From the NCBI GenBank assembly GCA_024734495.1, contig JALMQS010000075.1, positions 5,564,832 to 5,628,831 on the forward strand: a stretch of DNA of 64,000 nt, written 5' to 3'. The position numbers were made by a program, and so were the translations under genes. The notes under the pieces are model-generated. The model was not told the DNA's origin. It was given only the letters and a program-made list of their open reading frames with translations, and searched no databases. Below, piece after piece: positions 3,001 to 57,100 of this stretch (position 1 is its first letter; each line of letters begins with the position of its first letter). Source of the DNA: Forficula auricularia. Taxonomy: Eukaryota > Arthropoda > Insecta > Dermaptera > Forficulidae.

Positions 3001-6000
3001 ATACATGCTGAGGACTAACAATTAACTCTAGTTGATCGTGAAATACGTATCTTTTCCATGTGTATTTCAGAATTCTCAATTGAATATTAGAAAATCACAA
3101 TTGTATTTCAGAAATCTCAATTCAATTTCCGAAAACCTCAATTGTATTTTAGAAAATGTCTATTGTTTAGTTACTTCTTTATATATGTTTATTTTCCGAA
3201 AATACAATTGACATTTTCTAGAATTCAATTGAAAATTCTGAAACACAAGTGAGATTTCTGAAATTAAGGAGGTTCTTTAGCGACAATCGACAATCCACAC
3301 AAAAAGTTTTAGCCTCGTAACCACTCTATAAATATGAACGGAACTAAAATTTTAGGTTATGTTTTTTAACGTGACTGTACCACTCACACTACGAAATTTC
3401 TATATGGATACACAGATACTTGCCGTATCGTTTCCAAGCCATTGTGCTTATATCCCCTCCACTAAAAATAATCGCCCAAATATGTTTTTTTATTTTGTTT
3501 TTTATCAAAACTAAGAGGTAAATAATTTCAATTTTTTTCTAAGTTACTCCGAATATATTATTCTAACAAATATTAGTTTTTCATCAAGATAGTGAAAGTC
3601 CTTCAATGAAAAATAAAATAAAATAATGATCATATCCCCACCCTTTCCCTATCTACCCTATGTAAAAAATGTCATTTTTAATTGCAATTATTTCATTTTT
3701 GGTGTGGTGAATCGTCTTCAAATTTTAACAGTATGCTTTTAATGATTTATATTCCAAGTTTCAAAGACTTCTTGAATTTTTGCATTTGTGAAAGAACTAC
3801 CTTAACTTGACATTTTTAACCGACTTCAAAAATGGAGGAGGTTCTCTATTCGACTGAATTTTTTTTTTGTGCCTATGTTACCTCATATCTCCGCCAATTG
3901 TGAACCGATTTTGAAAAAAAAATTGCATTGGGTTCAGTCTACCTTCCGATTGGTCCTATTTTTTTTTCATAGGTATTAGACCTTTTTTGTTAGGTTTACT
4001 CATGCCTAACTTCTTTGTTTATGAACCGATTTCGATGATTCTTTTTTTATTGGAAAAGGGGGTATCTTAGGGATGGTGCCATATTAATTTGGTCAAGTTC
4101 TGATGATATGATCACTATTAATAACATCACTAAAAAGAGAAAAATAAAAAATACTTTTAAGAAAAAAATAAAACTGACTTCAAAAAGATTAAATGCAACA
4201 AATAAATACACTAAAAGGTATATATAATCATTAACTTTTTTAGTTACAACTAAACTACGAAATATTAACATGAAATTACTTTTTTAAGTCGGTGCCAAAC
4301 ATATACCTTTTATGAATCGCATTGGCATCGAGTACAAAAAGTAATTTCATGTTAATATTTCGTAGTTTAGTTGTAAATCTCAAATAAGTTAATAATTATT
4401 TTATACCTTTTAGTGTATTTTATTTGTTGCATTTGATTTTTTTGAAGTAGTTTTATTTTTTTCTTAAAAATTATTTTTCTGAAATAAAATTGAAAAAAGT
4501 GTAGTTAGTTATAAGTCTCAGGTTTGGTTGAACTAAGTTTCTATTTGAAAAGTTTTTATTTTGCCGAGAGTAGCAGAGTTGTTTATTCATAAAGAGATAC
4601 AAAGAGGTTGTCCTCTGCTTGATGCAATAAATAATATATATATATTTGATTTATGTATATATATATATATATATATGTTTATTTGCAGGACAACCTCTTT
4701 GTTTCTCTTATTTTAGGATGCAGGCTCTTTATTCAAACAGATTGAAAGTTTAGGTGTAAAATTTATTTTTTCATGTCCACTATGTTTGTGGTTAATAAAT
4801 AAATTCTGCACACCGATCAAGTACGTTAAATAGATCTTTTTAAAACTATTAAGCATGTTATCTTGTAATTTTTATTTAGTTCGCGCTATAAGTCTAAAAG
4901 TCGCCTCTAATTATACATTTTCAAATTTTTTTCGATTATTTGGAACTTCCATTAGACAAAATCCTGTAAAAATGTGTACTTTGACGTCCTCCCCTATGCC
5001 GTCATTTTAAAGTAAATAAAATTTAAAAAAATGTAGGCATAATTCTACTTGATTAGATCTTGACGCGGATATCTCAGTCTACTCGTGTGGTAAAAAAATT
5101 TAAAAAAATTTTTTGACTCCACGTTCGATCCTTTTAATATCGATTTCGAGGAAAATGAATGAATAAAACTTGTGAATTTCAAGTTTCTATTTTATTTAAT
5201 TGAAAAGTTTTGTGTTTTGCCGAGGGTAGCAGAGTTGTTGATTCACAAAGAGAAACAAAGAGGTTGTCCTCTTCTTGATGCAAATAAACATACACACATA
5301 TATATATCGAAATTATATATCTGTATATATATTATTTATTTGTTTGAGACTATAGTTTCGAAGGCTTGGCCCTCATCATCAGTCTTTTTAATTATAAATA
5401 CTATTTTTCATGGGATCAGTATCGCGTGGATTTTGAAATTTTTTTTCTTCTTTCTCAGCTGAATAGCCAGGTAGAATTAAAAGTTTTTTACTGAGTGACA
5501 GTTTTTAATCTGTAAACTAAATTGAAAGTTTTTGCCGAGAGAAGCAGAATTTTTATATATTGAAGGAGACAATAAAGAGTGTCTTCTGCTGGAATTATAA
5601 ATTTTATTTATTTATAACGAGACTATGGTTTTGAGGCTTTGCTCCTTCATCAGTCTATTAATCACAGGAATTAATTTATGAATCTTCATAAATTAATTCC
5701 TGTGAATACATTGTAATAGACTGATGAAGAGGGCAAAGCCCTCGAAACTATAGTCTCGTTATAAATAAATAAAATTTATAATTCCAGCAGAAGACACACT
5801 CTTTTATTGTCTCCTTCAATCTGTAAACTCCTGATGATGGACTAATAATCCGAAATATATTGAATTTGTATAAACCTCTTTGAGTTTTATTTCATTCACT
5901 GTGAAACTACACACCCTTTACTTTATTAATTAATATCATGTTTCACCTAAAACCTACACTACTTTCTCTAAGTAAAAAAAAAAATAGTATTTATAATTAT

Positions 6001-9000
6001 AAAGACTGATGATAAGAGCCAAGCCTTCGAAACTATAGTCTCAAACAAATAATTAATTTATACCTATACAGATATATAATTTCGATATATATGTGTGTAT
6101 GTTTATTTGCATCAAGCAGAGGACAACTTCTTTGTTTCTCTTTGTCTATTTTATTTAGTTAACGAGCTAGAAATGTTCTGATAGGCTGATATCTTATCAA
6201 CAATAATAGAAGTGTTTGTCATATGGAGCCCTAAAAACTATCATATTCGTTTTCAGCCCTCTCCCATATCCCAGTAAATTTTAATTAATTTCACCTAATG
6301 ATTGTTCTAACGTAAAAAAACCTGATAATTAAATATATATACTTACTGTAATGTTAAGATTTCCTTTTGGGAAAAAATATTTATAAGTCCTAGATTTACA
6401 ATTAAATCTTGCACTGAAATCTTTTTCCACTGGACACCACGAAATCATCCGAATTTCTTGTGGCAAAATTTTATTCAAATTCTTTACGTATGTTATTTCA
6501 TTTTCTGGAGCTAGCTCTGGATTTTCATCTTCTATCCGCTGATTACTTCTTACATCAATAGATATTACCTTAATATTTTGATTATTTAAAATTATATTTT
6601 AACAATATATAATGTACAAATATATAAATCAATTTTATATTTTACCTGACTAAATGCGCTCACTCCTTTATCGGTTCTTCCACAACGGTGATAATTACTT
6701 GTTTCTCTACTTTCAATTAAACAGGTTTTTTGTAGAGCTTGGAAAATCTCATATTCAATCGTTTTATTGGTCTCTTCTTGAATTGCAAAGCCTTGATAAT
6801 CCCATCCCAGATATAGGAATTTCAAAAGTACATGTCTTTTTTTGAAACTATATAAGAAATAAAAATGAATTTTTTTAGAAAATTTTTAATTAATTCACAG
6901 AGAACACATATCATCTCGCCTTGCTTGTGAGTAACGCTTCAAACCAAAAGGTGCTTAAGGTACGATTACCCAGGAGTTTGTCTATTTTCAGGTAACGCTC
7001 CAATCCCATGGCTACACCTATATAATTTGTCTTCCTATCTATCATTGCCATACATATTATATTCCTGCACGAATGCTTTTTGTACCCTCTCAATCAGTCT
7101 TTTGTAATTTTTTTTATTAGTAAAATGCATCCCTAAATATTTTGAAGCAATTATAGCATGATCTATGAGTTGTTGAAAGAAAGATGCAGATGAATTACTT
7201 CAGATACTAACAAAAAAAAAAAAAAGCCAAACCAATATTTAATATATACTCGTATAATTCAAGGGTTATGCAATAACATGATAAGCCAGAAAACTACAAA
7301 CCTAAGATAAGAGACTTCTAAGTTTCAGAAAAAAATCTATAAAATTAAATAACTACAGATTTTTGGTAACAACTATTTTTAATGTGCAATTTTTAGATTC
7401 ATAGCAGCTATGGTTGGATAAAAGAGCAAAGAATGAAGTATAGGAGTAATTTTTGAGACGGACTGATAAGGAAATTAGTGGATATTGATAGAAGCACCAA
7501 AAAAGAAGATAATTTATACTATCTTTTTATTCATAAACCGACGTTTCGAAGGCTATTCCCTTCTTCTTCAGAGTTTTGAAGTCAGTGAAGGAAATCCAAT
7601 CCTCTGTCTCCTCCTTTTAGTGGCAGTAACAATAATATATTGTATTTCATCTCAGCAGTAAAAATAAAATAGAATATATATTATTACAAAAGATAAGAGT
7701 AAATAGATATTTATTTAATATGGATTTACTATGAGTTAAGTGATACTGAATCATAGTAAATCCATATTAAATAAAATATCTATTTACTCTTATCTTTATT
7801 AAAGATGTTTCACCTTGCACCAACACCACAATCTCTACTGATTATATATTATTGTTACTGCCAGTGAAAGAGGAGACAGAGGGAAAAGTCGCATTGGATT
7901 TCCACCCTGAAGAAGGAGAGAATAGCCTCCGAAACGTCGGTTTATGAATAAAAAGATAGTATAAATTTTCTTCTTTTTTTTGGACTGCCTCATCAATATC
8001 CACCAATGAAGAATATTTTTACAAAAAAAATTTAATTAATAAAATCATGTGGCTTGTCATGTTATTTATTGCAATAAGACCTTCAATTAAAGAATGCCTA
8101 TTGCCATCTCTGGTGTAGTGCTTACAATGTGGACACATGGACTGGTATGGGCTACAGTGAATAAGTTTTCGGGCTGACTAGAATTCATACATTATTATTT
8201 ATCTAAATTAAAACATTTAAACATTTATATCAATAATGATTAAATATTTCTCATAAAATATTCTTTAAAAATCTGAGTCAGTTTTTCATAAATTTCACCC
8301 CTTCATTTCTAGGCCTCGAAGAAGGAAAGTTTCAGTTTTTCAATTTCCTCCTTTATTAATGTTCCAAGCTTTACCAGTATGCCAAAATTTAGAATTCTAG
8401 CTTGATTGTATTTTCTCTATATGTTAATTAAGCCTATAATCAATTTCACACCTTCATTTTAGGTCCTGAAAAAGTTCGATTTTTCCCTTTAATTGTAACC
8501 CAAACTCTACCAGTATGCCAAATTTCAGCATCTAGGATCAGCGGAAGTACTTTAGGTTTTTGATATGTCATTCAGTCAGTCAGTGTTAAAAAATTTTAAC
8601 CCCCCCTCCACCCCCATTAATTTTGGGTTAATATGCACCAAAATCTAATCAGCTCTTAATCTCGATGGACCAAAACTACGTGTGAAATTTGGTTTTGATA
8701 TTCACACTAGTTTTTGAGCAAGCTTGTCCACAAAAATTTGGTAACGCACAGACTAACAGACTAACTAACATACATTTTGGCAAAAACAATTATTATCTCG
8801 AAAAATATCATTTTTTCGATGTTCACTTATTAGAGCTTTTTTGTAGAGCGAAATGCCATGGTTTTCGCTCAATTTTTTTTAATCAAAATAGTTTCAGCCG
8901 TTTTTGAGATATTTCAGAAAAGAAGGAAAAAACACTTTTTTCATGCACGATTACAATACTTGACCATACCCTGTATGGAAAAGTAAAAAATATGAAAAAT

Positions 9001-10007
9001 AGTTTTTCCATAACAACAATATTAAATTTTGTTTGTTTTTTCTCTCTCCTGTAAAATTTCCTTGTTGTGAGTTAGCAGGTTTACTCTCTAAAGCGATGAA
9101 ATATGAGATCTTTTTCAATATATATGCTTGTGATATGGCCATGATCTATGTTGCGATCTGTTGAGTGTTAAGTACTTTAGGTTTTTGATGTCAGTCAGTC
9201 AGTCAGTGAATGGCACTTTTCAGAGCTTAATAACTCAAGAACTATATTAGATTTATTCATGAAATTTGGGATTCTAGGTGTTCCAGTGGGTCTTATTAGG
9301 CATGGAAAATTTCAAGTGTCTAAGTCTAATACTTTTTGAGTTATGGGGGGGGGGGAGTCGAAAGTAGCTCGAAATGGTTCGTGTAAAGTGTAAATATACA
9401 CATGGCCGGTCGTCCGTTTTTCCGAACTTGGCTGACACATGGGACACACTGCCGTGTGTCAAAATTTAATCGCGAGCCGGTGTTGAATGTTTAAAAATCG
9501 TGTATTTTGCGCAAATGAAGCTTTAGGAGGGTTTGTTGATTTTATTTCACAATATGGAACTAAATATAACTCCAAACGAACACAAGTATTATTATTATTA
9601 TTATACATTTTCCATTGAAAGCTTTATAAATTATGAATATAGGGACTAGAATCTTTGCGTTACTCCTGAGTAAGGACAGAATAAGCGCGCGTTGACTGTA
9701 AACTAATAATTATTAAATGTTACTTCCACTCTGAAAAATTGAATTTCCTTTGATTTTTCCAATTAACCTGTTTCGAACGTGTTTCCTCGTTTTTATTGAT
9801 TATATTTTTTAATTGTAAATTATGAGATTCTAATTGTATTATTCTGTCAATTAAATCCTTAAAAAAATTCCAAAAATTAAAAATAAAAAACAACATAAAT
9901 ATTGAAATTCTTACTTCTTTGCTAAATTTCTCAAGCTCTTGTCTACTTATTTGGTTAGTTATTTTTTTCCTCTTTATAACAAGTGATTTTTTATTTAATT
10001 CATCCAT
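1..10007 (-). CDS. PUS3: tRNA pseudouridine synthase 3 (PUS3), spliced, 3' end outside window
   Basis: Makes pseudouridine at positions 38/39 of the tRNA anticodon arm (known for the Pus3/DEG1, TruA-type family). Exons I can place: 10007-9915, 9857-9724, 6847-6646, 6568-6347, 2896-about 2746, 2668-2521, 351-208, 139-1. The start ATG at 10007 opens a short charged, coiled-coil-like N terminus (DLIDRIIQLESHNLQLKN). Exon 3 has GWDYQGFAIQEETNKTIE and RCGRTDKGVSAFSQ with the catalytic Asp. Later exons give DFSARFNCKSRTYKYFFPKG, KHDFRNLCKMDVANGV, FLWHQIRCIMGILLLIGQG and the C-terminal KSKMYKPLLERDKCG. Phases agree at every junction except the donor after 2746, where no GT in the right phase is visible: an 11-base repeat GAATATTCATT lies at both edges of that intron, so this is an assembly error, a non-canonical intron or a mutation. 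The 57-bp first intron is in frame. Introns 2 and 4 (2.9 and 3.5 kb) are filled with foldback repeats. Identity is very secure; one junction is open. Confidence 0.93.
987..1725 (+). mobile_element. Helentron-like repeat (family A), full copy
   Basis: Starts TAAGCTGATGTGTTCTGATG and ends in a hairpin (ACCATAC CCT GTATGGT) followed by AAAGTAA. A subterminal GACTTTACCATAC near the left end is the inverse of the right hairpin arm, so the inverted repeats are asymmetric. The interior has runs of C flanked by ttttagac and tatgtatacaaaatttggtt. No protein. Helentron affiliation is inference. Confidence 0.6.
1740..2440. repeat. Cluster of hammerhead foldback elements, decayed
   Basis: Arms of type i at 1745-1850 (centre deleted) and 2180-2430, and a type iii unit at 1945-2180. 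Three hammerhead cores are recognisable but damaged: 2042-2072 plus (helix II spoiled), 2266-2234 minus (GAAA to AAAA), and 2331-2365 plus (GAAA to GAGA). Confidence 0.7.
4140..4495. repeat. Foldback repeat without ribozyme core
   Basis: Arms around agtaatttcatgttaatatt return inverted with about 55 nt between them. Starts beside a sequence with accgacttcaaaaa, a motif also seen at 53165. Confidence 0.6.
4500..4745. repeat. Foldback arms of type ii, core deleted
   Basis: The arm ccgagagtagcagag ... aaagaggttgtcctctgctt returns inverted after an AT dinucleotide tract. The hammerhead region is absent. Confidence 0.6.
5348..5382 (-). ncRNA. Hammerhead ribozyme motif, type ii
   Basis: Minus strand: CTGATGA, T, helix II GAGGGC/GCCTTC (one G-T pair) with loop CAA, GAA, palindromic helix III ACTATAGT, cleavage base C. 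Core invariant residues all present. Activity is inferred. Confidence 0.72.
5721..5755 (+). ncRNA. Hammerhead ribozyme motif, type i (best copy)
   Basis: CTGATGA, A, helix II GAGGGC/GCCCTC (six pairs) with loop AAA, GAA, palindromic helix III ACTATAGT, cleavage base C at 5755. Helix I can be drawn between TTGTAATAGA just upstream and TCGTTATAA just downstream, with one bulged A and two G-T pairs. Confidence 0.78.
5831..5861 (+). ncRNA. Hammerhead ribozyme motif, type iii
   Basis: CTGATGA, T, helix II GGA/TCC with loop CTAATAA, GAA, palindromic helix III ATATAT, cleavage base T. Helix I AAACTC with GAATTT pairs at five of six positions. Confidence 0.65.
7540..7571 (-). ncRNA. Hammerhead ribozyme motif, type iv
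   Basis: Minus strand: CTGAAGA, A, helix II GAAGG/CCTTC, GAA, helix III palindrome ACGT, cleavage base C. Helix I has about five pairs (AAACT with GGTTT, one wobble). Confidence 0.72.
7907..7938 (+). ncRNA. Hammerhead ribozyme motif, type iv
   Basis: CTGAAGA, A, helix II GGAG/CTCC, GAA, ACGT, C. Helix I is short (ACC with GGT). Confidence 0.7.
8587..8986 (+). mobile_element. Helentron-like repeat (family A), left-truncated
   Basis: Shares the block accaaaatctaatcagctct onward with the 1-kb copy and ends in the same hairpin. The right half of a family C element follows at 8987-9165. Confidence 0.6.
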
Positions 10008-11691: not shown

Positions 11692-13445
11692 GGAGACAAT
11701 AAAAGAGTGTGTCTTCTGCTGGAATTATAAATTTTATTTATAACGAGACTATAGTTTCCAGAGCTTTGCCCTCTTCACCAGTCTATTATAATTGATTCAC
11801 AGAAATTAATGTATGAATGGAAAGCGAACATTTTCACGTGGATGAGTTAAGAAAATAATAACAAGTATAAGTGACAATTCTTAACTCATCCACGTGAAAA
11901 TTTTCGCTTTCCATTCATACATTAATTCCTGTGAATCAATTGTAACAGGTCATAAACCAACACGTCCTTCATCACTTTTAGAAAACAAATAAATTAATTC
12001 ACGATAGGCAATATGGATTCAGACAAAATCGGTTCCACAGGCGACATCTTAACCTGTGTCACCCACACCTTGAACAATACTCTAGAGGCCGGAAAAGAAA
12101 CCCTTGCTGTAGCCCTTGATATCTCCAAAGCTTTTGACCAGGTTTGGCACAAAAATCTTCTTGCCAAACTACCAGCCTTTGGATTCACACCAACACTTCG
12201 CAAATGGATTGAAAGCTTTCTGACAAACCGAAGTATAAAAGTTGTGGTGGATGGAACATCTTCTGAATCGTTCTCCACAAACTCTGGTGTTCCCCAAGGC
12301 TCTGTAATCTCCTCCACACTCTTCCTTATTTATATAAACGACCTTATTGATCAAACGGCAAACCCCACTCATTGTTACGCCGACGATAGCACTCTACACG
12401 GCAAACCCTCTCTCCCGAATAATCGAATCAATATTGCCTCCTCAATTACTCTCGACCTAGACAAACTGAATAAATGGGGCTCTCAAAATTTAGTTAACTT
12501 CAATTCAAACAAGACTCAATGTTGTCTAATTTCTAGGCGCGAAAATAGAGATTTCCCTGATATTCACTTCGATTCGAATACCCTGAAAATGTGTGACAGC
12601 CTATCCATGTTGGGCGTCTCTGTCGCATCTGACCTGTCTTGGAATGAACACATCTCCTCTGTGGCGAAATCTGCAGCAAGGAAGATTGGCTTCTTATTCA
12701 GGTCCAAGCGATTTTACAAACCCCCACAACTGCTCACCATCTACAAGGCCCAAATCCGCCCCTATCTCGAATACGGCTCTCATCTGTGGAGAGGAGCCTC
12801 AAAATATTCTCTTGCTACCCTTGATGCAATTCAGAAACGAGCCGTCAGGCTAATTGACGATTCTACCCTCACCGACTCCCTCGACTCGCTGGCTCATCGA
12901 AGAGATGTCTCCGCCCTTTCCCTTTTCTATAGATACTATCACGGCAGGTGCTCTGATGAGATAAATTCAATAATTCCCCCCAAAGCATGCTTTGCACGCA
13001 GCACACGTTTTGCCGACTCCCAACACTCTTTCGCGGTCAAATTAGAAAAGTGCCGGACCACTTCATTCGCGAATTCATATATCCCCATGACTTCAAGGAA
13101 CTGGAACTCTCTCCCAGCCTCTATCTTTCCCAGCACCTATGATCTTCAAACCTTCAAAACCAGGGTGCATAGACACCTACGTCTACACCCTCTCACTTAA
13201 ACAACTTTCCTTCTCTTCGGTAATGCAAGGGTCTTTCGAGATCCATAGGGGCTACATCTTTACTGGTGCACCCCTTCTTGCATTCGATTGCATTAAAAAA
13301 AAAAAAAAACTGATGAAGAGGGCAAAGCCCTCGATACTATAATAGTCTCGTTATAAATAAAATTTATAATTCCAGCAGAAGACACACTCTTTTATTGTCT
13401 CCTTCAATATAGAAAAAATTCTGCTACCCTCAGCACAAAAACTTT
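11692..13445. repeat. Type i hammerhead foldback split by a LINE
   Basis: Left arm 11692-11830, then an inner stem 11818-11935 (gtggatgagttaag and inverse), then the LINE, then the right arm 13310-13445. Both cores are damaged: 11781-11747 minus (CTGGTGA), 13310-13348 plus (GATA for GAAA). Confidence 0.8.
11949..13309 (+). mobile_element. 5'-truncated LINE with long reverse transcriptase frame
   Basis: The reverse transcriptase frame runs 12013-13200 (395 codons). It has motif A (ALDISKAFDQVWH), motif B (SGVPQGSVISSTLFLIYIND), motif C (YADD at 12375-12386), a thumb region and the C-terminal SRNWNSLPASIF typical of the CR1/jockey groups. The 3' UTR ends in an A-run near 13295-13309. The true frame continues upstream (KLIHDRQYGFRQNR) but is broken by a one-base shift near 12032 and another before 12000; no endonuclease is present. 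It is therefore a dead, 5'-truncated copy. It sits in the loop of a hammerhead foldback element whose arms are at 11692-11830 and 13310-13440. Confidence 0.85.
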
Positions 13446-14103: not shown

Positions 14104-17100
14104 ATGTCTATAAAAGTTGACTTGGAACTCAAAAAAGTAATTAACATTATATTAATTATAGGTATACTCTTCTATATTATAAATTTAATTATCATTTCTC
14201 TAGGCCTTCGCAGAACTTCAAACCAAGATGTTAGAAACATCGCAAAAGTTAAAATTGGCCGATGTTCAAATCGAAACTTTAAAACGATCAATGAATCATG
14301 CACAACTTACAGACAAAGAATTAAGTGTGAGTTAAATCCTTATCATTAAAGACCGTGCAATTGCACCTTTTTTTTAGCCAACTTTAAATTCAATGAAACC
14401 TAGACAGAAATTTGAATTATACAAAGGACTTAAAGGAGACAATAAAAGAGTGTGTCTTCTGCTGGAAAAATAAATTTGTAAAACTCACTTTCACACATCA
14501 ATTACTGTGAATCAATTGTAAGTAATAGACTTTTGAACTGTAGTCTCTTTATAAATAAATTAAAAATTTATTTTTCCAGACGAAGACACACTCTTTTATT
14601 GTCTCCTTAAATTTATTAAAATTCTTTTACTCTCAGCAAAAAGAAACATTCAATTTAACATAAAAAGGACGTTCTTTTGACACTATTATTTTGAACGAAA
14701 TTGCACTTTTTCAATTTTGACAGCACAATTTATTTATTTTTTTCCATAATTCATAAAAATATGTTTTTTTTAAATAATTTTTCTATAAATTTAATATTTA
14801 ATAATATTGGAGTAATTTTTGGAGGCAGAAGTATAACTTATCGAAAACCATTTAGAGATGTGCATAGGAATAAATGATTAATTTCTTGAAAAAATTTATT
14901 ATGTTAAACAGGACTTTTTACCTATTTGCACGTTTTGAGCTTTTTATATGCACCTTTCAAAGGTTTTTACGGCACGAACATCCGGTCTTTACTTAACATA
15001 AATCGTTGGCTTAGAGTGTAAAGCTGCTAAGTCCATTTTTTATCATATATGACATATTAATACCGTTCGAAAGAAAAAGAAATTCAGCATCGCCCAAGTA
15101 AAACTGCTACTTAAAATTACGATCGTAAGTTGTAGAAAATAAGCTGACGTGTTCTGATGTGGCCATCCACCTGACTTTACCATATAACCTAGCCCCTCAC
15201 TTATATTTAATATTTAATGAAGTTATTAATAATCATGTAGGGGGGGGGGGTTAGTTTTTGCAATTTTAGACTCCTGGGGTCCCACTGATTATGTATACAA
15301 AATTTGGTTGAGTTTGGTACAAGGGCCTAGATTTTCATTTTTTGACCCTACACCCCTCCCCCTTTGGGCGGTTAGTTTTTGCATTTTTAGACTTCTGGGG
15401 TTCTACTGATTATGTATACAAAATTTAGTTGAGTTTTCAAATGGCCTAGATTTTTAATTTTTAACCCCCCCCCCCCATCCTCCTTAATTTTGGGTCGATA
15501 TGCACCAAAATCTAATCAGCTCCTAATCTAAATGGACCAAAACTTCGTGCGAAATTTGGTTTTGATATTCACACTAGTTTTTGAGCTAGCTCGTCCACAA
15601 AAATTTGGTAACGCACAGACTAACTAACAGACATTTTGACGAAACAATTATTATCTCGAAAAATATAATTTTTTGATGTTCACTTATTAGAGCTTTTTTG
15701 TAGAGAGAAATGCCATGGTTTCGCTCAATTTTTTTATTCAAAATAGTTTCAGCCGTTTTTGTGATATTTCGAAAAAAAGAAGGGAAAAAAACACTTTTTT
15801 CTTGCACGATTACAATACTTGACCATACCCTGTATGGAAAAGTAAAAAATATGAAAAATAGTTTTTTCCATAACAACAGTATTAAATTTTATTTGTTTTT
15901 TCTCTCTCCTGTAAAATTTCCTTGATGTGAGTTAGTAAGTTTACTCTCTAAGGCGGTAAATATTATATCTTTTTCAATATATATGCTTGTGATATGGCCA
16001 TGATCTATGTTGCGATCTGTTGAGTGTTAAATCTCAATTAAGGTTGCCTCAAACTTCTTTTGATTGCGAATTTCTTATATGAATGTAATTTATACTTAGC
16101 ATTCTAATTTGTGATTTCTTTGCTCCCAGAGTGGCAGTTTTATTTTTCGGAATTGATTGTTTTTTGTCTTTTTTAGATGTCGGTTTTTGGCGAAACAAAT
16201 TATATACATTGCCCACCAAAAAATAACACTAACATACTGTATAAAAATGCTAATTAGTGTTATTTAATTTTAATTACACTTTCAAAAGTTCCCCAAGGCT
16301 CCTAATTGTTACCAGAAATATTATTAGATCTTATAATTAAAGGAATCGTAGGGAGTTGGTTAATTTAAAGTCTTGTCCAACTCCCTACGATTCCTTTAAT
16401 TATTAATCATGGACACGAATAATGAAATATTATTAGATCTTTTGCTTAAAATATTATTTCTTAAATCTTTTGATTATCAATTTCAATATATATGGTTGTG
16501 TTATGGTCATGATCTATGTTGCGGTTCAATCTGTCCAATACATATGATTTTTTGATCGAATTTTGGGGCCAATTATAAAAATATCGAATTTGGTATCTCA
16601 AGTATTTTGGAAGATAATCTCACTTAGAAGGCTTATTTAGTGTTCCATACAATCTTAAAACAGAACCTTATTAGTGTCGTTACAATCTCTGTCTCTTTAT
16701 CAGCCAGAACAGCTCGTTGACTAAATAGTATATAGACTTCAAATTTACAAGTTACTAGTTTTGTTTTAAAATTTTAATCATTTATTTTGGGAGATTAGGT
16801 TAGATTTCTGTGAGATCGAAAATACTTTTATTTCTTGACATGGGTTAATGAAAAGAGCTCATTAAATAGAATGAGTCTGTATTTTTAAAAATTTAATTCA
16901 TTTCAAATTGGTAGCTTGAGGGAGTAGTTGAATTTCAAGACATTTAAGACCCCTTCAACAGATTCAATTCTGACTCAATTCCTGAAATTTTTACTTCTTC
17001 TTTTCACAATGCGGAGGTCTACTCCCGACTAAACTTTGAACTTTTTTGTTCGACATCCTTTTACATCGGCATTATTACAAAAAAAAAAAAATGAGCTAGT

Positions 17101-18607: not shown

Positions 18608-18610
18608 TTG

Positions 18611-21189: not shown

Positions 21190-21312
21190 ATATTTTTTTT
21201 TACTTAGAGAAAGTGGTGAGGTTTTAGGTGAAACATGATATTAATTAATAAAGTAAAGGGTGTGTAGTTTCACAGTGAAACTACACACACCTTTACTTTA
21301 TTAATTAATCTT
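21190..21312. repeat. Type iii foldback arms, core missing
   Basis: The arm attaattaataaagtaaagg and its inverse nearly touch at 21262-21268; the hammerhead segment is deleted. Confidence 0.6.
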
Positions 21313-22925: not shown

Positions 22926-22929
22926 ATTC

Positions 22930-23179: not shown

Positions 23180-23549
23180 AATGAACTTACCTTTAAACGT
23201 GGATACCAAGAGACGTTTGATGATACAATTATTCTATTTGAAGCGGTTCTGTTTGATGTAAATAAAGATACAAATATATAAAAATATATTTACATAAATA
23301 TTTCATTATTTGAGTCTAGTTAAGGCCTGGCTAACCTAAATCGCACCACGGTTCGCAGTAGATTACGACCTAAAAATTTCCCAAAGCCCCACAAAAAATT
23401 TTTTAATTTAAATATTTTTTTCGAGATTTGCATTTACAACGTATTTCGTATTTAGTGAATTTTAATGAAAGTGAATGCAAAGGAACACTTAATAAAGTGT
23501 TCAAATGTGAAAAAACACGTCAGATCCAGATAAGAAAAGAAAACATCTT

Positions 23550-25475: not shown

Positions 25476-25735
25476 CCCGTATGGAAATAAATAGATTTTC
25501 GAAATATGTTTTTTATATATTTTTTTTAAATATAAATAAATATATTAAAAATATAAAATTTTTGTGTTAAATTTATATAAAGTTTATACTAGAGCGACAT
25601 AAAAATAATTATATTTTATGAATAAATAGAAAACATAAACTTTATATAAATTGAACACAAAAATTTTATATTTTTAATATATTTTCAAAAAATATATAAA
25701 CAACATATTTCAAAATCTATTTATTTCCATACGGG
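25476..25735. repeat. Foldback element, about 260 bp
   Basis: Ends CCCGTATGGAAATAAATAG and the inverted copy. Arms of about 105 bp surround a short spacer. No hammerhead core. Confidence 0.7.
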
Positions 25736-45100: not shown

Positions 45101-48100
45101 CATTTCTATGATAAAAATATTCTAGCTCGGACAATGTTGCCAGATGTGTTAAACGAGCAGGGGATTGGCTAGTAGTGGTACATAAACAGCAAAAAGTTTT
45201 GGGCTTTTGAATTATGAATCCTTATTGTCTGTTGTATATATTTTAGCATTAACTTTTTGCTAGTATTTTCGCGAAACCACTACCTTAAAAAATGAATATA
45301 AAGCACTAGTAAAAAAGTAAATATTTCAAATATAGACAATGATACAAATTGTCTGGGTGATGAAATTACCCGGAATAAAAATAAAAAATATAAATATTTA
45401 CATTAAAATAATTTTTTTCTAAAAATTTTCATAAATATTAGAAAAACATTCCATATCTGAGCTTTTGTTGTTTCAAATTATAAAATTAACTATAGTTATA
45501 TAATTGAAGTGAATTTATTTTTATGAGTAATAAATTTCAATTTGATTGATCCCCTCTCTTCCTCTATAGAACAATAATACGTATACTAGAGTAACGATTT
45601 CCACCCATGGTTCCGCGGAACACTGACGTTCCTCAAGCTCGTCTCCGGTGTTCCAGGATAAATTTCAAAAGGAAAAGTAAAAAAAATTAAAATTTAACGG
45701 GAAACCGCAATGAGAGCTGTCTGTAATAACAATGCTCTTTTATTATATATAAACGGTAAGAAATTGAGATAGGATGTTGATTTAAAAGATTTTGTTTTGC
45801 CGAGAGTAGCAGAGTTTTGTTGATTCACAAAGTAAAATCAATGAGATTGTCTTCTGCTTGATGCAAATAAACATTACATATGATGAATATATAATATATA
45901 TAATTTATTTGTTAGACTTAAGTTTCGAAGGTTTAACCTTCATCATCAGTCTTTTAATTTACGTTACTTTTAAATATTTTATCTGTTATTTCACATGGGT
46001 TCAATTAGCCGATTGGATAGAGAAAATCATTACCTACCAGTTGGATATATGACAGGCAAAACGTGTATGAATTTTCGTACCAAAGATTCCTGGCCTTTTT
46101 TTACTAGTGTATTTCAAACGAGGGGTGAACCGCGATTGGAATTAGGTGAACACCGTCTTTGGAATTATTTGGAATTACTTTGGAATTCATTAGATAATCT
46201 ATTGTCTTCCACTTGGAAATGAAAGTGGAAGTAGGTGTACAAGATTTTAGGTCGCGGTTCACCCCTCGAGTTCATATCTATCTAGACTGCCCCCCCCCCA
46301 TTATCAATTCTAGTTATGCTAATGATAATTATAATTATATTTTTTTGTGTTTAAATTTCGTTTCTTATTTAACAAATTTAGAGTATCAGTCGTTCGTAGT
46401 TATAAGTTCAGTCCAAGTTTTTTTTTATGATGCATTTTCGAGTTTAGAAACATTCGAAACGAGAAATCATTTACAAACATGAATTTTTTTCTGTGTCTAG
46501 GTCCTCCACGACAACTTAGAAAGGAAGGTCATATAAAGTTTGTTTTGGTTTTAAAATGTTTGTATTTGTCATACAAATAACAAATTTGATTTTAGGCTAT
46601 TAGATATTAGAACTCCCGTTTGAATGAATTAAATAAAAAAATCGAATCATTATAAGGGAAATTTTCGAGTGAATGACCAGAAATTTGGCACACAAGTTCG
46701 TACTAAAAAGATGCATCTTTATACCAAGTTTCAGCTTAAACCGCTTGTTTATATGAAACTATTAAATTATCAAATGAAACATTTTCACTTTTCCCTCCAA
46801 TTTATAAACGTATTTAGGACGGCGGAAATAGCATTAATTTACAATTATGTTGAACATCAATCCGGATATAGGTATATACAATTCTTTTATAAAAAAATAT
46901 ATTATATTCGAGTTTCGGAGACTTTTTCAATAAATATCTTTATTTGCCATGGTAGATATAAATATTTTGAAGAATGTTAGAAACAATTGTTCGTAATTTT
47001 TTTATTATTTAAATCTCACATTAAAAAAATATTAACAAAATATTATAAGTACAATTAAAGTAATTATGATTGATTTTGATAAAATTATCGTATTTATTTC
47101 TTTAAATAAAAAATTAAATAATATTTTGAATTTATTTCAGAGACGTATACAGGCGAGAGTCCATGAAATTTTGGGCCCTGAAGCCCGAGCGCTTCGGAAT
47201 CACATTGTACATATCTTAGTAGATCTAATATAAAATATCTTTAAAAATTTAATTTAATTTACATTTTATTCCAAAAATTTTATTTTAATAAATACCCAGA
47301 TTATTTTATATATATACAGATAAATTTGTAATTTCTTGATGGGTTCTTTGATCATTTTAGCCAGAATATAAATTGTTAGTGAGTGCGTGAATATTTCTTA
47401 TATTATCAAAATTATAGGAGATAGATTTTTTGCTGGGCGCGGGACTTGAACATGAATTCGTATAGTGAAAATCGGCCATACTACATTAAATATTCATATA
47501 TTGGAGAATAGTAAAATTAATTTAAATGTATAAATAAAGTAATGACAATTTTGCATACCGTAAAAATAAATAAGAAATAATAACAACACTTGCGCAGAAT
47601 TTAAACTTTGTATCACGGACGAGAGAACATTTTCCGACGCACAGACAGGTAGGCACTACACTCAACTGGCGAATGAATCTGCATGAAATTCAATGAAAGA
47701 ATATGCCTGGGAATGCTAGTCAGTATTGGATTGCGTGTGTGTATTTGTATGTGTGTGTGTGGATGTGTAGAATTACGATGCGAGATAGAGAGAAGTGATA
47801 CTGGGAAATAAAGAACAATACCCCGCCCGCGTTAAAACCGGACATAGAGCCGGTTTTAAAATAAAAAAAAATTGATAGTAGCGTTATTTTCAGATTCGGT
47901 GGTCCATCTGAGTTCCTCATTACGTGTGCGGGCGTAATAGTTGACGGAGTGGAACAGAAGCACCCGTGGTACTAACCTTGAAATGACGCATGTAATCTGC
48001 GCGCCTGTTCTTATGCAACCTGTTCCTCCAGGCATGAAATCATATGCATCATTCTTGAAAACTCATCAACCATTTGGACCCAAACAAGGGGGGGTTCACA

Positions 48101-51100
48101 GAAAATCGAGTAGGTGCATAACAATGTAAATACAAAAATGTTATTTATTAATCGATAATTTAAGGTAATTGTTTCACCATATGGGTTTTCTTAGGATTTT
48201 TTTGAAATTTAGAGATTATTTTTTAAAAAATTCTACATCAATTGGTGGCGAAACAAAATTTATGAAAAATATAGTTCCGGGGATATTAAATTCCAAAAAT
48301 AGAGTTTTTCAGACTCTTATACATTGCACTATACAGGATATCGGAAAGTTTCCATACATATTTAATTGTAATTAAGAAACTCTTCTTACCATTGTTATAA
48401 AAAACTAAACCAACATGAAACAATAACTAATACATTTTTTAAGAAAATTTTAATCCATAGTTACAACACAGTTTCTAAGATAATGATGAATAAATAATGA
48501 AAAATTTACACTAAAAACAAGCTGGCAACAAAGCATTTATTTAACCTAAAAAGTGGGTTAACTTTAGTACTTTTTTGAGGTTTTTGGCTTCAGCTTTTGT
48601 CTCAATAGCTTTCTATGGCTTATTAAGAACTTTTTGTTTTATAAATCTCTCTTTAAAATGTACTTTATCTGACATTTCTATGATAAAATATATACAAACT
48701 CGGACATTGTTTCCAGATTTGTCAAACGAGCACGGGATTGACTAATAGTGGTACATAAACAGCAAAAAGTTTTGGGCTTATGAATTATGAATCCTTATTG
48801 TCTGTTCTATATACTCTAGCATTAACTTTTTGTTAGTAATGTCGCGAAACAATTACCTTAAATAAAAATATGCATTTTTTTTCTTTTGAAAAATGAAATT
48901 GAATTTGGAAGAAAAAGTGAAACTTTTTCAAGACTCGGTATACTGTTCGCAGTTTTGGTAAATTAATCATTTTAAATAATAAATATCTAAATCTGATATT
49001 TATTTCGATTTAATATTTTTTTACCTAGAGGCAAAAAAAAGGCCGTTCCTTGAATAAAGAAATTCAGAAATTAATATCCAATAGTGTGAAACAGGTCTGG
49101 ACTTGTATTTATCATCCTTGGTTTGCTTTAGTTCTGAAAGAAAAGAGATAATTCTATCTGCGCTCTTTTTAGTAATTTTTCTTGATGAAAGAATCGCTCT
49201 CTCACAATTTTATTAAATAATTAAAAAAGTGAAAACTTATTTACACTATAGACGTCCTTATATCTAATTAGTAAAAAACTCAAATATATGAAATGATAAT
49301 TTATGCCTATATTATAAATAAACCGTTCTAAAATATCAATAAGATCTTTCAAAAAATGATGTTTTCTACATTTTTGAACGAGAAGTTCTAAAGCTAGAAA
49401 GCTCAAAATCTAACCAGTTCCCCATATTCGAAATACAAACATTTTGGTTCAAACTAACTTTCTATGACTTTTCGTTTTTAAGTTATCGTGAGTATCTGAA
49501 TCAAAATGGGCTAATACCCCGATATATCGAGTTAAATTTTCAAATATGTAGATTTTCTTTTCTTTTTGTGAAACTCACTTTGCATTTATTTAATTCAACT
49601 ATTAATTAGTAATGTTTCAGAGTGCACCGTCATCATATTTCTGAACAATTAAAAAGTTATAGCCTATGATGTTTGTTTTCAGCTTGAACTCTTTTTTCCT
49701 ATTTGAAAATATACCAGAGAGAATTTGCAAATGATCAAAATAATAAAATAATAAATCGGTAAGTAAACTTCTGTTATTGTTCTATGACTGAATATTCCAG
49801 TTTTAAGTGTGATGATTGTTTATGGGAAGCGAAATATTGTTCATAAAAAATGATTTATAAGCATTCAAGAAGATATAATTTCTTAAATCCTACTTAAATA
49901 ATTTGGATCCAAACTTAAATATAATTATTTTTATAAGATTGGAGTAATTTTTGGAGACGGACTGATAAGTGAATTAAGTGGATATCGATGAGGCAGTCCA
50001 ACAAAAGAAGAAGATAATTTACACTATCTTTTTATTCATAAAACCGACGTTTCGGAGGCTATTCCCTTCTTCTTCAGGGTTTTGAAAAGTCAGTGAAGGA
50101 AATCCAATGCGACATTCCCTCTGTCTCCTCTTTCAGTGGCAGTAACAATAATATATGTAGACTACATTATAATTCTGCTGACTATGAAATACAATATATT
50201 ATTGTTACTGCCACTGAAAGAGGAGACAGAGGGGAATGTCACATTGGATTTCCTTCACTGACTTTTTAATACCCTGAAGAAGGAGGGAATAGCCTCTGAA
50301 ATGAATGAATAAAAAGATAGTGTAAATTATCTTCTTCTTTTTTGGACTGCCTCATCGATATCCACTTAATAATTATTTTTAATAAAAATTTGGTTTTTTA
50401 TTTAAGGCCGATAAATCCTTACCCTTACCCTTATAGTCTCATTTGTAATACCAAATTTAATTTTAAAATATCTAGAGTAATTGTATTGCCTTGAGACTGC
50501 TGCATCGAACAAAAACAGTTCATGGCCTATATTAAGATAAAGTAGATATTCCTCTGTTTGCTTTTTTTTAAAATTAATTTTATATATAAACCATATTGTT
50601 TTCTAATAAGTTTTCTGACCCGCATCTCCCAGAAAAAATTTCAAAAGACACCTACCACATGAGTATTACATACATATGTAGTAGGTATAGTTTATTTTTT
50701 AATCTTATCTCTGATATCTGTGTATCAAGAAGGTAAAATTAGTAAGATTTTTTTAAAGCGCTTTTATTCTATTTAATTAACATAGAAGAGACAGTCTGGA
50801 AATAATTTACGGGTGTAATTAGGAATTTTTAAATTCATTTATTCTTTATCTCATTAATCATTCATTCATTCATTCCTCTTATGAGGAAAATTTCTTCGTA
50901 CCATCTTTAGTCATTTATATTGTCTTTTATTACACGTGTATAGTAATTAACTATACATTTTTTATTCAAAGAATAATTTACGTGTTTTCGAAGCTTATAT
51001 AATGTCCCCTATAGAATATTTGGAAAAAATTTATGCATTATTAAATGTTACGAAATTCGAGATAAACACATCAAATTTAAACTATGAAATAGTTGAAAAT

Positions 51101-54100
51101 TTGTGAGAAACTATTAAAATCGATAGGAATTAAAATTTTACCCATATCATGATTCTTTAAATTTTAAATTTCATTTTACAGTTTTTGATGTTGTTATTAT
51201 AGATTGAGGATAGGGTTGAAATATGTAGTTTTATTAAATTCAAACGTCTTAAAAAGTAAGTTACTTGGATTCAATTGATGAATGTCAATTTAAGAGGATA
51301 GTATATTTTTGAAAAACTACAAAACCTATTTAATTTATATCTCAGGTTTGGATGAAGGCAGTCCAGAAATAAATAAGAAATTACTTCCAACAAATATTAT
51401 TTATTGGAAATATTTTACTCTCATAATGTTCTTTTGAAACCAACGTTTCGGAGGATCTTCTCTCCTTCTTCAGGGTTCAAAAGGGTCATTGAAGGAAGCA
51501 GACAAGAAGAAAGAGTGCTATATGCTTCTTTCAATGATCCCTTTGAACCCTGAAGAAGGGAAGATTCTCCGAATCGTTGGTTTCAAAATAACATTATAAG
51601 GGGAAAACATTTCCAATAAATATTATTTGTGGAAACTAATCTCTTATTTATTTCTGGACCACCTTCATCCAATCCTGAGAAACTAATAGATCAGTTCGTC
51701 TCCAAAGAAAAACTTAACCTATTGATTTAATTTTAATACATAATCTTCTTCTTCTTTGACCCTATTGGTATCGTATTTTCTCTATTGGAATGGTTCCCTT
51801 CCACTAAAATTGTTTTTATTTTTTTACGTTTTTTTTATTCTCCATATCATTTCTATAATGTTTCTATAAGTTTTCACCGCAAAAATAACACATTTTACTC
51901 ATTCATTTATAATTAAAAATTCATTAGCTCCATCGCATTTTGAATCGCACCTGAATGTGGAAATTTTGTATTCTTTCGACCAGACGATACTTGTAGCAAA
52001 ACTATACTATAAATAGTATAAACCATACTATCATATAATCTATTTGCAAGTACAATCATGAGCACATTTATTTTTTCGAAATGTTTCCTACCTGGTGATA
52101 TTAAGATGAATTTTATTTTATGATTTTTTTTTTTTTTTTAATTTATCATTAAGTTTTATTTTAGAAAATGTACTATATAAAACACTGACAATATTAGAAA
52201 TAATTCATATTCTATGACATATCAAATACCTAGATATAATTTAGTTTCCCATTTCTATTATCAAACGTTAAACAAAGAAACGCTTGATAAGATATTTTGC
52301 AAATTTCTTATGACATTGAAAATTAATTACGAAAGAGATAAGAGAAAATCAATGTTTTATGTTCTTATATAGGTATAGAAAACCCTTTTGTATCATTCTC
52401 ATGAATATTAACAATTCAAAATACATGAATAATGAATATATATATATATATATTTTCAATTTGTTTTCTGTTTATTATGGAGACACACCTATGCATTTAT
52501 AAATGATAATTTTTCTAATTAATTTCTTAAATTATAAATGTATAGATATAAAATTAAACTTTCAATCACAATTTCTCTTTAATGCAGATTTTTTTTTTAG
52601 TTAAGCATAAATTATTTCTCAAAAAAATTAAATTCTTTTGAATTTGTGATGGATAAAAATGTGGGGGGTCACAATTCCAATTATTTTCCTTTAGATTTAT
52701 TTAATAATTTCTAAATGAATGCAAGCAATACGACTTTTTCGAAAAAGTGCCTAGAAATTGAATTAATAAAAAATATTTAATTAATTGACGATAAATCTGT
52801 TAATTTCTCACATCTAAACAATATTGGTCGATAAATTACATCATTGATTAGAAAATAAAATTGAACCATTATAAATTTTAGACACCGAGGAAATCTCATG
52901 AGCGTTTGCGATCTAATCTTTTTTTTCATTCATATACCTATTTTAACATTTATTTATAATAGATTATCGGTTCAAAGACGGTAATTAATTTAATTTGAAG
53001 ATAAAAAATAAGGCAGCTTATATTATTTACCTTCTTCGGAATTTCGAGTCACTCGCTTGTTTCTGATAGTGATTTTTATTTACATTTTAGCGATGTTTCG
53101 ACATTTTAAAATTGAGAGGGATGTATGAGAGAGGGATGTATGACTATAGAGATATAATTACCTACATTTTTTTACCGACTTCAAAAAAGAAGAAGGTTCT
53201 ACTTATACAAATTAAAAAAATCAATCAATCAATCAAAAAGCTTGAAGAATATGTCATTTACTAACGTTGCTAATATTTAAATAAATATGACCTTAAAAAT
53301 ATAGGCGGTTTATCATCAGACATTAATTATACCATATTTATTGGCCTTCAATTTATATAAAAATAATTTTTCAAAAAAAAGTTAAAAGTAATATATCTAT
53401 GATATCTTATTAGATATTTGTGATATAAAAGGATTGCTTCTAGGAATCGAACCCAAGTACCAAATTGCAATCTGGGCTAATGTTTCTTTTGATATGAAGC
53501 TCTATTGACATTAGGAAGAGCCGAGGGGTGAACCGCGACCTAATATAGTGTACACCTACTTCCACTTTCATTTCCAAGTAGAAGAAACTGGATGAAGATA
53601 CATTATCTAATGAATTCCAAAATAATTACACATAATTCCAAAGACGGTGTATACCGAATTCTAATCCCGTTTCACCCCTCGAGAAGAGGCAGGTCTATTG
53701 AGGAGGCTCTCACTCCAAGAGATAGAATTTAAAAAATTCAATTTTAATTGAAAAGATTTTGCTTTGTCGAGAGTAACAAAGTTATTGATTCATAAAGAGA
53801 AATGGGGTTGTCCTTTGCTTGATGCAAATAAACATTTACAAATATCGTATATAATAATAATAAGCCTTATATTTATCATAAATATACATATATAGAAAAT
53901 TAATTATTTGAAACTAGGCCCTTCCGGGCAGAGGCCTCTCCAAGGAATCGCCATGCTCTTCTTTGTCTCGCAATATCGTATATAACAAATATAAAATGTA
54001 ATTATCGTATAATATATATTTATATTTGGTATATAAATGTATATGTTAATTTGCATCATGAAGATAACAACCTTATTTCTCTTTATAAATGCATTTTTTT

Positions 54101-57100
54101 GAGATTCGAGAAACTCACTGCTTTGTATATCGTCGGCTTAAAGCGTAAACCTGCTAACTCCATTTTTTATAATATATGTCATATTTATACCGTTCGAAAG
54201 AAAAAGAGATGCATGCAGCATCGTCAAAGTAAAACTGCTACTTAAAATTAAGATCGTAAGTTGTAGAAAAAAAATGTGAAAAATAGTTTCTTCCCTAAAC
54301 AACAATATTAAATTTTGTTTGTTTTTTCTCTGCCCTGTAAAATTCCCTTGTTGTGAGTTAGCAGGTTTACTCTCTAAGGCGACGATATTTGATTTTGTTT
54401 ATCTGATGAATTCTTCTTTCGCTTATCTTTTCTATTAAAATCAATTTTTATTTGTGAACAATTTCTAAAATAACCAGAGTGAAATGGTGAGGTGATAAAA
54501 CAAGTACAATATGGTACAAACTGTAGGGCAATGGTGCATAAATCCCTGATAGAGGAAAACTCCACCGGTTACAGGAGGGTTCATGTTCCATCGTGAGCAG
54601 GATCCACACGCGCACATGTCATCTCCTAATTGAATTCGCTTTTCCAATCTCCCGAGATAATAATCCCAGAGATTAGATAATACGCGACAGAGACCTTCGA
54701 TATTTCATGATTTAATACTTCGGAAAAAAATGTCTTTGACATTGACTGTGATCACCAAGAGGAAAAAGAGAATGAAGAGAGAGTGTTGGCAAGAAGAGGA
54801 GTTAATCACTACTGACTGAATGGCTGGGCTGCATGCACCACTCGAACGAACCTTACCTCCAATTAGTTGCGGCTGAGCCATACTTGCGAAACCGCCAACA
54901 TTGTTAGTCTAAGACCTCATGCTAATGGATGCAAGATAATTACATAGTTTGAATTCAATAGGACCCCTCTTTGGCCTGAAGAGAAATTATATTTTATGGC
55001 TATCATTGCTCAATCGATTGATTTATAGAGTAAAAGAGAAAAAAAATTATCCTTAGTAGGTATTCATTATTTCGTGATAATCTTCGGAAATTTATCCTAA
55101 TGAATTTGAGCACATATATGTTAAGAATGTATTCCGTACTGCTCTACTAATTTTATAATCCAAAATGTATAAAAAATATTAATAACGATACAGCACATTT
55201 TAGATAGCTTTACTTTAAACATTTGTTTTAATTTTTAATTTTTAAGTACCCAAGTGAACGGCGAAAGTTAAATAATTTTAACGGTATATCACTCGCATCC
55301 ATAATAAGTATTAATTAAAACAGGAATAGCAGGGAATTGGACAATAAATAAAAACAGAGTTTTTATTAAATGGGCCAGACGTTTCGTCGATTTATTTCGA
55401 CTTCCTCAGTAGCCCATTTTATTACGCTTTGTCAAACGACAATTCCACTATGCGTCGAAACACCTTTAATCTTTTTTATTATAACTACAATACATTATTG
55501 GCCTCAATCATTCAACAATCTTGAACCCCTTTTCACCTTTTAACAATTAAAAAAATCAAAATCCTTTATGTTGTTTTTATAAGAATTTTGATTTTTTTAA
55601 TTGTTTAAAGGAGAAAAGGGGTTCAAGATTGTTGAATAATTGAGGCTAAGAATGTATTGTAGTTATAATAAAAAAAGATTAAAGATGTTTCGTCGCATAG
55701 TTGAATTGTATTTTGACAAACAGTGATAAAATGGGCCACTGAGGAAGTCGTGTTGTAATTTGTTCAAAAATTTCTGACTGTTAATTCTACAGATCTAGAA
55801 ATTATTTTTTATTTTTTAAAATGGAATTGAGCACCCGGCAGGATTCGAACCTGTCATCTTTCTTTTATAACCGAATTAACAGGCAGAAATCTTCTATTAT
55901 AAAGCGCCTATGCTACCCATCGCGAGCCACTCATTTAAAACCCACAAAAAGTTTAAGTCAAATTTATTAAAATTAGAAACTTTAAATTATTATTTTAAAA
56001 CCCACGAATGGTCAAGGTCAAAAAATGAATAGGCCTCCTGGACAGCAAGATGCCCGACAAAGGCGGGTTTCGCAGCTGGTTATCGAATAAATTTGAAACT
56101 TTCGCGGTTCACTTACTTAAAAATACAGTACATTGTGTATTAAAAACCCAAAGTAACTTTACGCTTTAAATCACGCACTATTTTTGCTCTGTCTGTGTTA
56201 TGTACTCATAAAAAAATAAAAAATAAAAAGGCGACGATTTAACGAAAAAGCAATTTTGTTCTATTAGATTAATTTTTGCATTAGACTTTGTTTTTATTAA
56301 TACAAGTAATTTATTTATGAAAAATTTAATTTCGGCTCCTCGAGTGACAAAGAAATTTTCGCTTGCTTAGCAGAAAATTTTCTCCTACCAAAGATAAATT
56401 GACGGAGATAGAAAAAAAATTATTGATTTAAATAGATGAAATGTGAACATATAAGTATATTTTGATTTATGTGGTTCTTTTGCGCTTCTTTTTAAATTAC
56501 CTAATTTAAAATTCCGATTAATCATTCTTTGATTATTTTAAATTAAATGATGAAGCGCCTTTTTATTTCCTCTTTTCCATATATGGAAAAAGGGGTTTAT
56601 TATAGTATATTGCTACCAAATATTTTAATAAAAAAATGTGATTTTTAAGAAGGGTCTCATGAATTTCTTACTGATTGTGTGATTGCCTTAAATCTAATAT
56701 GTAGATTAGTTTTAATGTTAAATATTTTCTGATGATTTTGATGTTTTTCACAAATGAAATTATGCATGGCAAAGATAGAAAATGAGATTATTTCGGATTT
56801 TTTCATTCTATTTTACTAGAGATTGTCTTATTTTTCATTCTTTTAAATATAATTTAACTTGGTAATAGATTCAATAGATTTTCTATTTACACCTTGCATA
56901 GTCTTATCTGTAATAAACATCACCATTATCCTATAATGTTATACTACTAAATTGCTAGAATGGTGTTAAAACATCACAGAGTATTTGATAATGCTCTTTC
57001 TCATTTCCTGGAATTTACAATGGGCGTTAGGCGCAATTTCTATTGAGTAAATTTTAAGTTATTAATTAACATATTATACCTATAAATATATTTAGAGACC

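Follow-up and report, generated by a model that had tools for sequence, protein, structure and literature searches.

A 64,000-nucleotide stretch of the genome of the earwig Forficula auricularia (assembly GCA_024734495.1, contig JALMQS010000075.1, positions 5,564,832 to 5,628,831 of the forward strand; hereafter the window, with positions counted from its first letter) very probably holds relics of at least four Penelope-like retrotransposon families, mainly as head-to-head pairs of pseudo-long terminal repeats (pLTRs) with minimal dimer-type hammerhead ribozymes. The hammerhead motifs are confirmed as real at the level of sequence, helices I and II of two of the families are maintained via compensating changes, and 6 of the 20 elements tested are enclosed as a whole pair by an exact flanking repeat of 12 to 13 bp, as expected of a target site duplication. 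Membership in the Penelope-like group is suggested by this non-coding anatomy.

The original prediction had listed eleven intact hammerhead cores and about fifteen damaged versions, and both counts held. Each of the 11 sites shows a CTGANGA, a hairpin, a GAAA and a palindromic stretch, and its cleavage position is C or T; in RNA terms, CUGANGA and GAAA enclose helix II and H17 is cleavable. A descriptor consisting of CTGANGA, a stem of at least 3 bp and GAAA, applied to both strands of the whole window, gave 13 matches; 200 dinucleotide shuffles averaged 0.28, and none exceeded 2. These matches correspond to 10 of the listed sites, two damaged relatives (2042 and 50274, both plus strand) and a plus-strand match at 21803 that looks like a chance occurrence; the remaining listed site (50077, minus strand) escaped the descriptor owing to an A.C mismatch within helix II. 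When 13 copies were used as BLAST queries, 31 merged rows resulted, comprising the 11 listed sites, 15 damaged relatives and 5 motif-free alignments. As had also been predicted, hammerhead-type cores occur with several versions of helix II, all of which pair, with the one mismatch at 50077.

By the sequence around the core, these copies fall into families A to D. Several types do exist, but the proposed "at least six" are better counted as four families of repeats, of which some comprise two subtypes; arm identity is about 52 to 76% between subtypes within A, B or C and mostly 80 to 97% within one subtype. Family A has cores at 7540 to 7571 (minus) and 7907 to 7938 (plus), both supported by the core, the descriptor and compensating changes, at 50046 to 50077 (minus; single helix II mismatch) and at 51442 to 51473 (minus; second subtype, with a long helix I), in addition to two damaged copies. 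Family B has cores at 39896 to 39927 (plus; supported by the core, the descriptor, the helix I test and compensating changes) and at 55378 to 55409 (minus), the latter being the best single candidate with ten paired positions in helix I, and two damaged copies. Family C comprises cores at 5348 to 5382 (minus) and 5721 to 5755 (plus), each supported by core reading, descriptor and BLAST, a core at 45915 to 45949 (minus) in which helix II and the palindrome are both altered with pairing retained, and eight damaged copies. The two family D cores, at 5831 to 5861 and 23739 to 23769 (both plus), are weak, with a helix II of 3 to 4 bp and a mismatched helix I, and three damaged copies accompany them. 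Among the damaged cores, the family D copy at 2042 to 2073 (plus) has one inserted base and retains a 6-bp helix I, and the family A copy at 50274 to 50301 (plus) has no cleavage site left; the others lie at 2266 (minus), 2331 (plus), 5653 (minus), 6006 (plus), 11781 (minus), 13310 (plus), 14522 (plus), 23694 (minus), 33582 (plus), 34579 (minus), 39428 (minus), 51550 (plus) and 55739 (plus). The hammerhead density in the window is high, although less exceptional than had been claimed, since the type I motifs of a coral genome are reported, in the accessible part of PMC7229834, to number more than 6000 and to form 16 families, the majority of the motifs being of the minimal kind.

Helix I directly abuts the core in families A and B, and helix II follows after one extra base; at all 11 listed sites, A9 is separated from helix II by such a single A or T. 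Helix III is reduced to 2 bp or to a palindrome (ACGT for families A and B, ACTATAGT and ACTTAAGT for family C, ATATAT for family D), and such a palindrome implies that two motifs would have to pair. The compensating-change count for A and B took in 7 of 10 copies, leaving out three with deletions. Of the cells in helices I and II, 84.6% are paired, against 62.5% after shuffling and 28.6 to 46.4% when slid, and both the covariation score (0.652 versus 0.268 shuffled) and the number of cells with a double change (23 versus 11.4 shuffled) were matched by 0 of 500 shuffles, counts that are not probabilities since the rows are related. In a swap test, all five A and B rows paired best inside their own family, and the damaged family D core at 2042 came second best. 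Because the copies of a given repeat do not count as independent, evidence between families weighs more. For an outside control, an exact search of viral contigs for the skeleton CTGANGAAG..CGAAACGTY yielded 63 stretches: a helix II of at least 4 bp was present in 2/63 of these compared with 5/6 in the window, and the combination with 5/8 helix I pairs in 0/63 compared with 5/6, in sets that differ in base composition.

The curated covariance models of Rfam, which expect a helix III, matched none of these sites: neither the scans of the whole window, with the gathering score or E<=10 as threshold, nor those of sites 55409 and 51473 alone listed a hammerhead. This silence is likely due to the near-absence of helix III together with the one extra base before helix II. 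An extra A at the A9/helix II position is known from the chrysanthemum viroid hammerhead, and single insertions beside CUGANGA occur according to the accessible part of PMC10085705. As the class was wholly missed here by standard RNA-family annotation, hammerhead counts obtained in that way for animal genomes would be too low.

The carriers of these motifs are near-perfect inverted repeats arranged head-to-head, with the minus-strand motif in the left arm and the plus-strand motif in the right arm, so that the ribozymes, one per full arm, point outward. The inverted repeats of the original prediction were found, but rather than a separate foldback class they are best read as head-to-head inverted pLTRs. 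Family A provides A50 (49934 to 50368, a palindrome, with a 41-nt tail on the left arm), A7 (7443 to 8004, with an intact core in both arms and a 34-nt left-arm tail) and A51 (51341 to 51715, limits partly by eye, second subtype, with a 36-nt right-arm tail). Family B provides B39 (39342 to 40025, arms of ~113 bp around a 415-bp spacer, with a 43-nt right-arm tail) and B55 (55340 to 55751, palindrome 55398 to 55750), the right arm of which ends within the hammerhead. From family C come C5.6 (5519 to 5817, inside a family D arm, with a 43-nt left-arm tail), C5.2 (5199 to 6144, an outer pair of the second subtype around the D arm and C5.6, with a 47-nt left-arm tail) and C2 (2165 to 2440, with two damaged cores and neither arm with a full tail). 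Family D is represented by D23 (23548 to 23842, left-arm overhang of 42 nt), D33 (33455 to 33682, its left arm truncated and without hammerhead, with a 44-nt left-arm tail) and the short D21 (21191 to 21305, arms truncated past the hammerhead, left-arm overhang of 53 nt); the arms of D21 and D33 are cut back on their inner (5') side. Ribozyme cleavage was considered as the event setting such inner ends and rejected, as none of the truncated arms inspected informally by eye (D2, D21, D33 and the 4.6-kb pair) starts at the predicted cut.

Most of these pairs have just one tailed arm. Arm alignment showed one arm 34 to 53 nt longer at its 3' side in nine of nine elements, the element ends being set by exact 12- to 13-bp repeats for six and partly by eye for A7, A51 and D23. 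Comparison of four further pairs with the family tails found one tail in C14, the 4.6-kb pair and D2, and at most part of one in C2. Hence, exactly one arm is tailed in 12 of 13 two-armed elements, with C2 as the exception, in a count that leaves out B55 and C11, each with one arm broken. Measured without the tail, the predicted cut lies 55 to 73 nt from the end in A7, B39, C5.6, D23 and D33 and 101 to 104 nt from it in A51 and C5.2.

Flanking direct repeats were sought at the borders of 20 elements (14 plus 11 zone pairs, five of which re-tested earlier elements). Six of the 20 are enclosed by exact repeats of 12 to 13 bp: A50 by the 13-bp ATAATTATTTTTA at 49921 and 50369, B39 by the 12-bp TTTTTAATCAAT at 39330 and 40026, C5.6 by the 12-bp AATCTGTAAACT at 5507 and 5818, C5.2 by the 13-bp TCTATTTTATTTA at 5186 and 6145, D33 by the 12-bp TAATAAGAATTT at 33443 and 33683, and D21 by the 12-bp TAATCTTATATA at 21179 and 21306. 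Among 400 random zone pairs none had a repeat of 12 to 13 bp, the longest reaching 11. Shorter repeats border D23 (the 8-bp AAAACATC at 23540 and 23843), A7 (exact over 7 bp, or 11 bp if one mismatch is allowed) and A51 (8 to 9 bp exact), and no flanking repeat of at least 12 bp was found at the borders of B55. Moreover, a related D copy (2006 to 2060) is empty at the place where C5.6 sits, having the 12-bp sequence once, near 2022 to 2042, without an insert. Nesting reaches three levels, with C5.6 in a D arm and both inside C5.2.

The link to Penelope-like elements made in the original prediction is supported by the inverted pLTR anatomy and by the match of the minimal hammerheads to published elements. 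In the accessible part of PMC3846280, Penelope elements are described as having inverted pLTRs at their ends, in most cases head-to-head and with a junction palindrome; target site duplications measure 8 to 10 bp, and one of the inverted pLTRs may have a 31-bp tail. Inverted pLTRs and short 3' extensions are also listed among the peculiarities of the group in the portion of PMC8969392 available. Likewise, the available portion of PMC7761336 presents Penelope-like motifs as minimal type I hammerheads without helix III, possibly working as dimers.

We propose a model in which a Penelope-type reverse transcriptase (RT)/endonuclease would lay two opposite complementary DNAs (cDNAs) at one staggered cut by target priming. 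One cDNA would start at the far reverse-transcription start site and the other at the near one, leaving a single arm with a tail, and the staggered cut would result in a duplication of about 12 bp. A Penelope-type protein does cut and extend both DNA strands, and reverse transcription starts inside the RNA at two neighboring sites, with the tail corresponding to the sequence that separates them (PMC11167929). One tail per pair is then most simply read as one start site per strand. As a rule for all four families, with one long and one short cDNA each started at its own RT site on its own target strand, this is offered tentatively, as a possibility that we would not yet call probable. If true, the tail would permanently record that integration was target-primed on two strands, each insertion would be born with its ribozyme opposed by its own antisense arm, and the hammerhead would be kept for tandem copies and be off in inverted ones. 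In the parent element, the ribozyme may process tandem-element transcripts through the pairing of two same-strand motifs. More generally, the inverted copies could be a readable record of Penelope-like insertion, with a one-arm tail, a duplication of ~12 bp and inner ends cut back, for a mechanism that a 2024 biochemical study termed incomplete.

Folding predictions are in line with such silencing. Helix II is present in 8 of 12 predicted monomer folds, and in the whole inverted element its probability falls to 0.007 or less in all five elements folded, compared with at least 0.8 when taken alone in four of the five. In an intact inverted element, the antisense arm is thus predicted to mask the ribozyme and, as it is always transcribed ahead of the ribozyme, would be expected to do so during transcription too. 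Hence, the inverted copies are probably mostly inert. In vitro, mutation of the Anolis ribozyme had no effect on insertion, and cutting needed the protein (PMC11167929).

Several observations weigh against our assignment and model. Neither a Penelope RT nor a GIY-YIG domain was seen among the 14 open reading frames of at least 110 amino acids, three of which were searched with Pfam, shorter frames being outside the scan. Fourteen of the 20 elements have no 12-bp flanking repeat, having shorter ones or none, and the 7- to 9-bp repeats of A7, A51 and D23 are within chance length. The number of A and B pairs with a double change, nine, was reached by 118 of 500 shuffles. Compensating-change support is modest in family C, for which 7 of 11 copies and only helix II and the palindrome were counted: 93.7% of cells pair against 90.5% shuffled and 22 to 46% slid, a level reached by 31 of 500 shuffles, and its two pairs with double changes were matched by 113 of 500. 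Family C also fails the swap test, its own family being preferred by one row in three, and its helix I is weak, with monomer folds that pair core bases; family D, with 5 copies, lies outside the compensating-change counts. Compared with shuffled flanks, helix I gave p<0.05 at only 3 of 13 sites (55409, 51473 and 39896), and the same three are the only sites among 12 with a hammerhead-like predicted monomer fold. Finally, the two strands showed no difference of start site in vitro (PMC11167929).

The closest rival to two separately primed cDNAs is snap-back self-priming on one template, as proposed in the accessible part of PMC3846280, which we regard as possible to about the same limited degree as the start-site rule. 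In C5.6, B55 and D21 the inner junction is close to symmetric, as snap-back would have it, and 6 of 20 arm quartets unite both arms of one element, with 4 against this grouping and 10 without signal. However, copying of the first cDNA should duplicate the tail, yet the tail is on one arm only; the arms of A50 and D33 begin at different points; and arms expected to be of equal age differ in private changes, with 13 to 14 versus 3 to 4 in A7 and 9 to 10 in the left arm of C5.6 (5519 to 5680) versus none in its right arm (5695 to 5817). If the one-tail rule holds genome-wide, it would separate self-priming from two-strand priming without any new experiment. A transposase-based origin, in which foldback or miniature inverted-repeat (MITE-like) DNA transposons would carry hammerheads by happenstance in their inverted repeats, fits the long near-perfect repeats, the small size, the lack of coding sequence and the target duplications. 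It is nevertheless unlikely: a one-sided tail of 34 to 53 nt is incompatible with a transposase recognizing both ends, the termini of 12 of 13 pairs failing to match for this very tail, the arms of D21 and D33 are shortened at the inner (5') side as after incomplete reverse transcription, and left-with-left grouping was never a clear winner in the quartets described above.

Still less probable are animal retrozymes, small nonautonomous repeats with type I hammerheads that spread as circular RNA. They too place hammerheads within small noncoding repeats of a GC-poor genome, and they co-occur with minimal Penelope-type motifs in the available portions of PMC7761336 and PMC7229834, but they are direct tandem repeats of 150 to 300 bp with helix III and loop contacts, whereas the motifs in the window sit in inverted pairs, and the 18 tandem arrays of the window contain none of the 26 motif positions (11 intact and 15 damaged). 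Cores that arose by chance within AT-rich repeats and were spread as the repeats were copied come last, and we consider them highly improbable. Copies inside a family are indeed not independent, Rfam returned no hammerhead, and helix I is weak in C and D; yet the core is common to four families otherwise unlike, A and B retain both helices through compensating changes, and the combined helix I and helix II pairing of five of six window cores is missing from the 63 chance cores of the viral contigs. Chance or repeat copying alone was rejected on the shuffles, the viral-contig cores and the compensating changes. Altogether, relics of Penelope-like pLTR pairs remain our preferred reading.

Other features of the window were noted alongside. 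The plus-strand frame at 11998 to 13197 encodes a reverse transcriptase (RVT_1, E value of 8.2e-25), the sole RT-like frame among those of at least 110 amino acids, which by its motifs is like those of long interspersed nuclear elements (LINEs); it has a 72% match on the minus strand at 38358 to 38803. The spacer of B39 (39455 to 39869) contains a stretch resembling by eye a transfer RNA (tRNA) B box, and a tRNA-like short interspersed nuclear element (SINE) was rejected there, ARAGORN finding no tRNA. Long palindromes without a hammerhead match, with weak Rfam microRNA matches, lie at 4147 to 4478, 17945 to 18150, 25476 to 25735, 43188 to 43434 and 57382 to 57476; the microRNA precursors listed by cmscan below gathering scores are the long hairpins of the ribozyme-bearing and other repeats, not microRNA genes. 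A dispersed repeat with an internal tandem unit of ~122 bp occurs in six copies about 75 to 93% alike (983 to 1728, 8591 to 9171, 15136 to 16030, 34880 to 35607, 37270 to 38024 and 43966 to 44539). Exon-like minus-strand frames were found at 29661 to 30053, which is SH3-like by eye, at 35609 to 35941, where 35612 to 35941 encodes an SH3 domain with sorbin and SH3 domain-containing protein 1 as its closest PDB match, and at 59139 to 63254; among them, a frame of 1371 amino acids had no Pfam match. These frames probably belong to one large sorbin/SH3-like animal gene with the ribozymes in its introns, and the four intact ribozymes between 45.9 and 55.4 kb are on the sense strand of this putative gene.

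Minimal dimer-type hammerheads of Penelope-like elements were reportedly described by Cervera and de la Pena in 2014 and by Lunse et al. in 2017. Compared with them by description only, the window motifs share the type I layout, the CUGANGA...GAAA core, the almost absent helix III and the location in pLTRs, and differ by the one additional base, A or T, that separates A9 from helix II at 11 sites. Both the minimal hammerheads of Penelope elements and the inverted pLTRs are thus already in print, and an open-access literature search, made without the two key hammerhead papers, found no publication joining hammerheads, inverted pLTRs and the one-tail rule.

Among known systems, the Penelope pLTRs of Adineta vaga, as far as they are covered in the accessible part of PMC3846280, resemble those of the window by their head-to-head repeats, one-sided tail of ~31 bp, junction palindrome, target duplication and solo pLTRs. 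They differ in that the window pairs have no coding part between their arms, that duplications are 12 to 13 bp in the window and 8 to 10 bp in Adineta, and that the tail is optional in Adineta but marks one arm, and never both, in 12 of 13 window pairs; hammerheads are unmentioned in that part of the source. Poseidon of Anolis (PMC11167929) likewise has a hammerhead near the element start with the RT start downstream, 85 to 92 nt away by subtraction (26 to 111-118), compared with predicted cut-to-end distances of 55 to 73 nt in five window elements and 101 to 104 nt in A51 and C5.2, and both DNA strands are cut and extended there. Metazoan retrozymes, in the available portions of PMC7229834 and PMC7761336, share type I hammerheads in short noncoding repeats; theirs are direct tandem copies with helix III and tertiary contacts, whereas those of the window are inverted and minimal. 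Set beside these systems, the window is a dense example of a known anatomy rather than a new kind of system.

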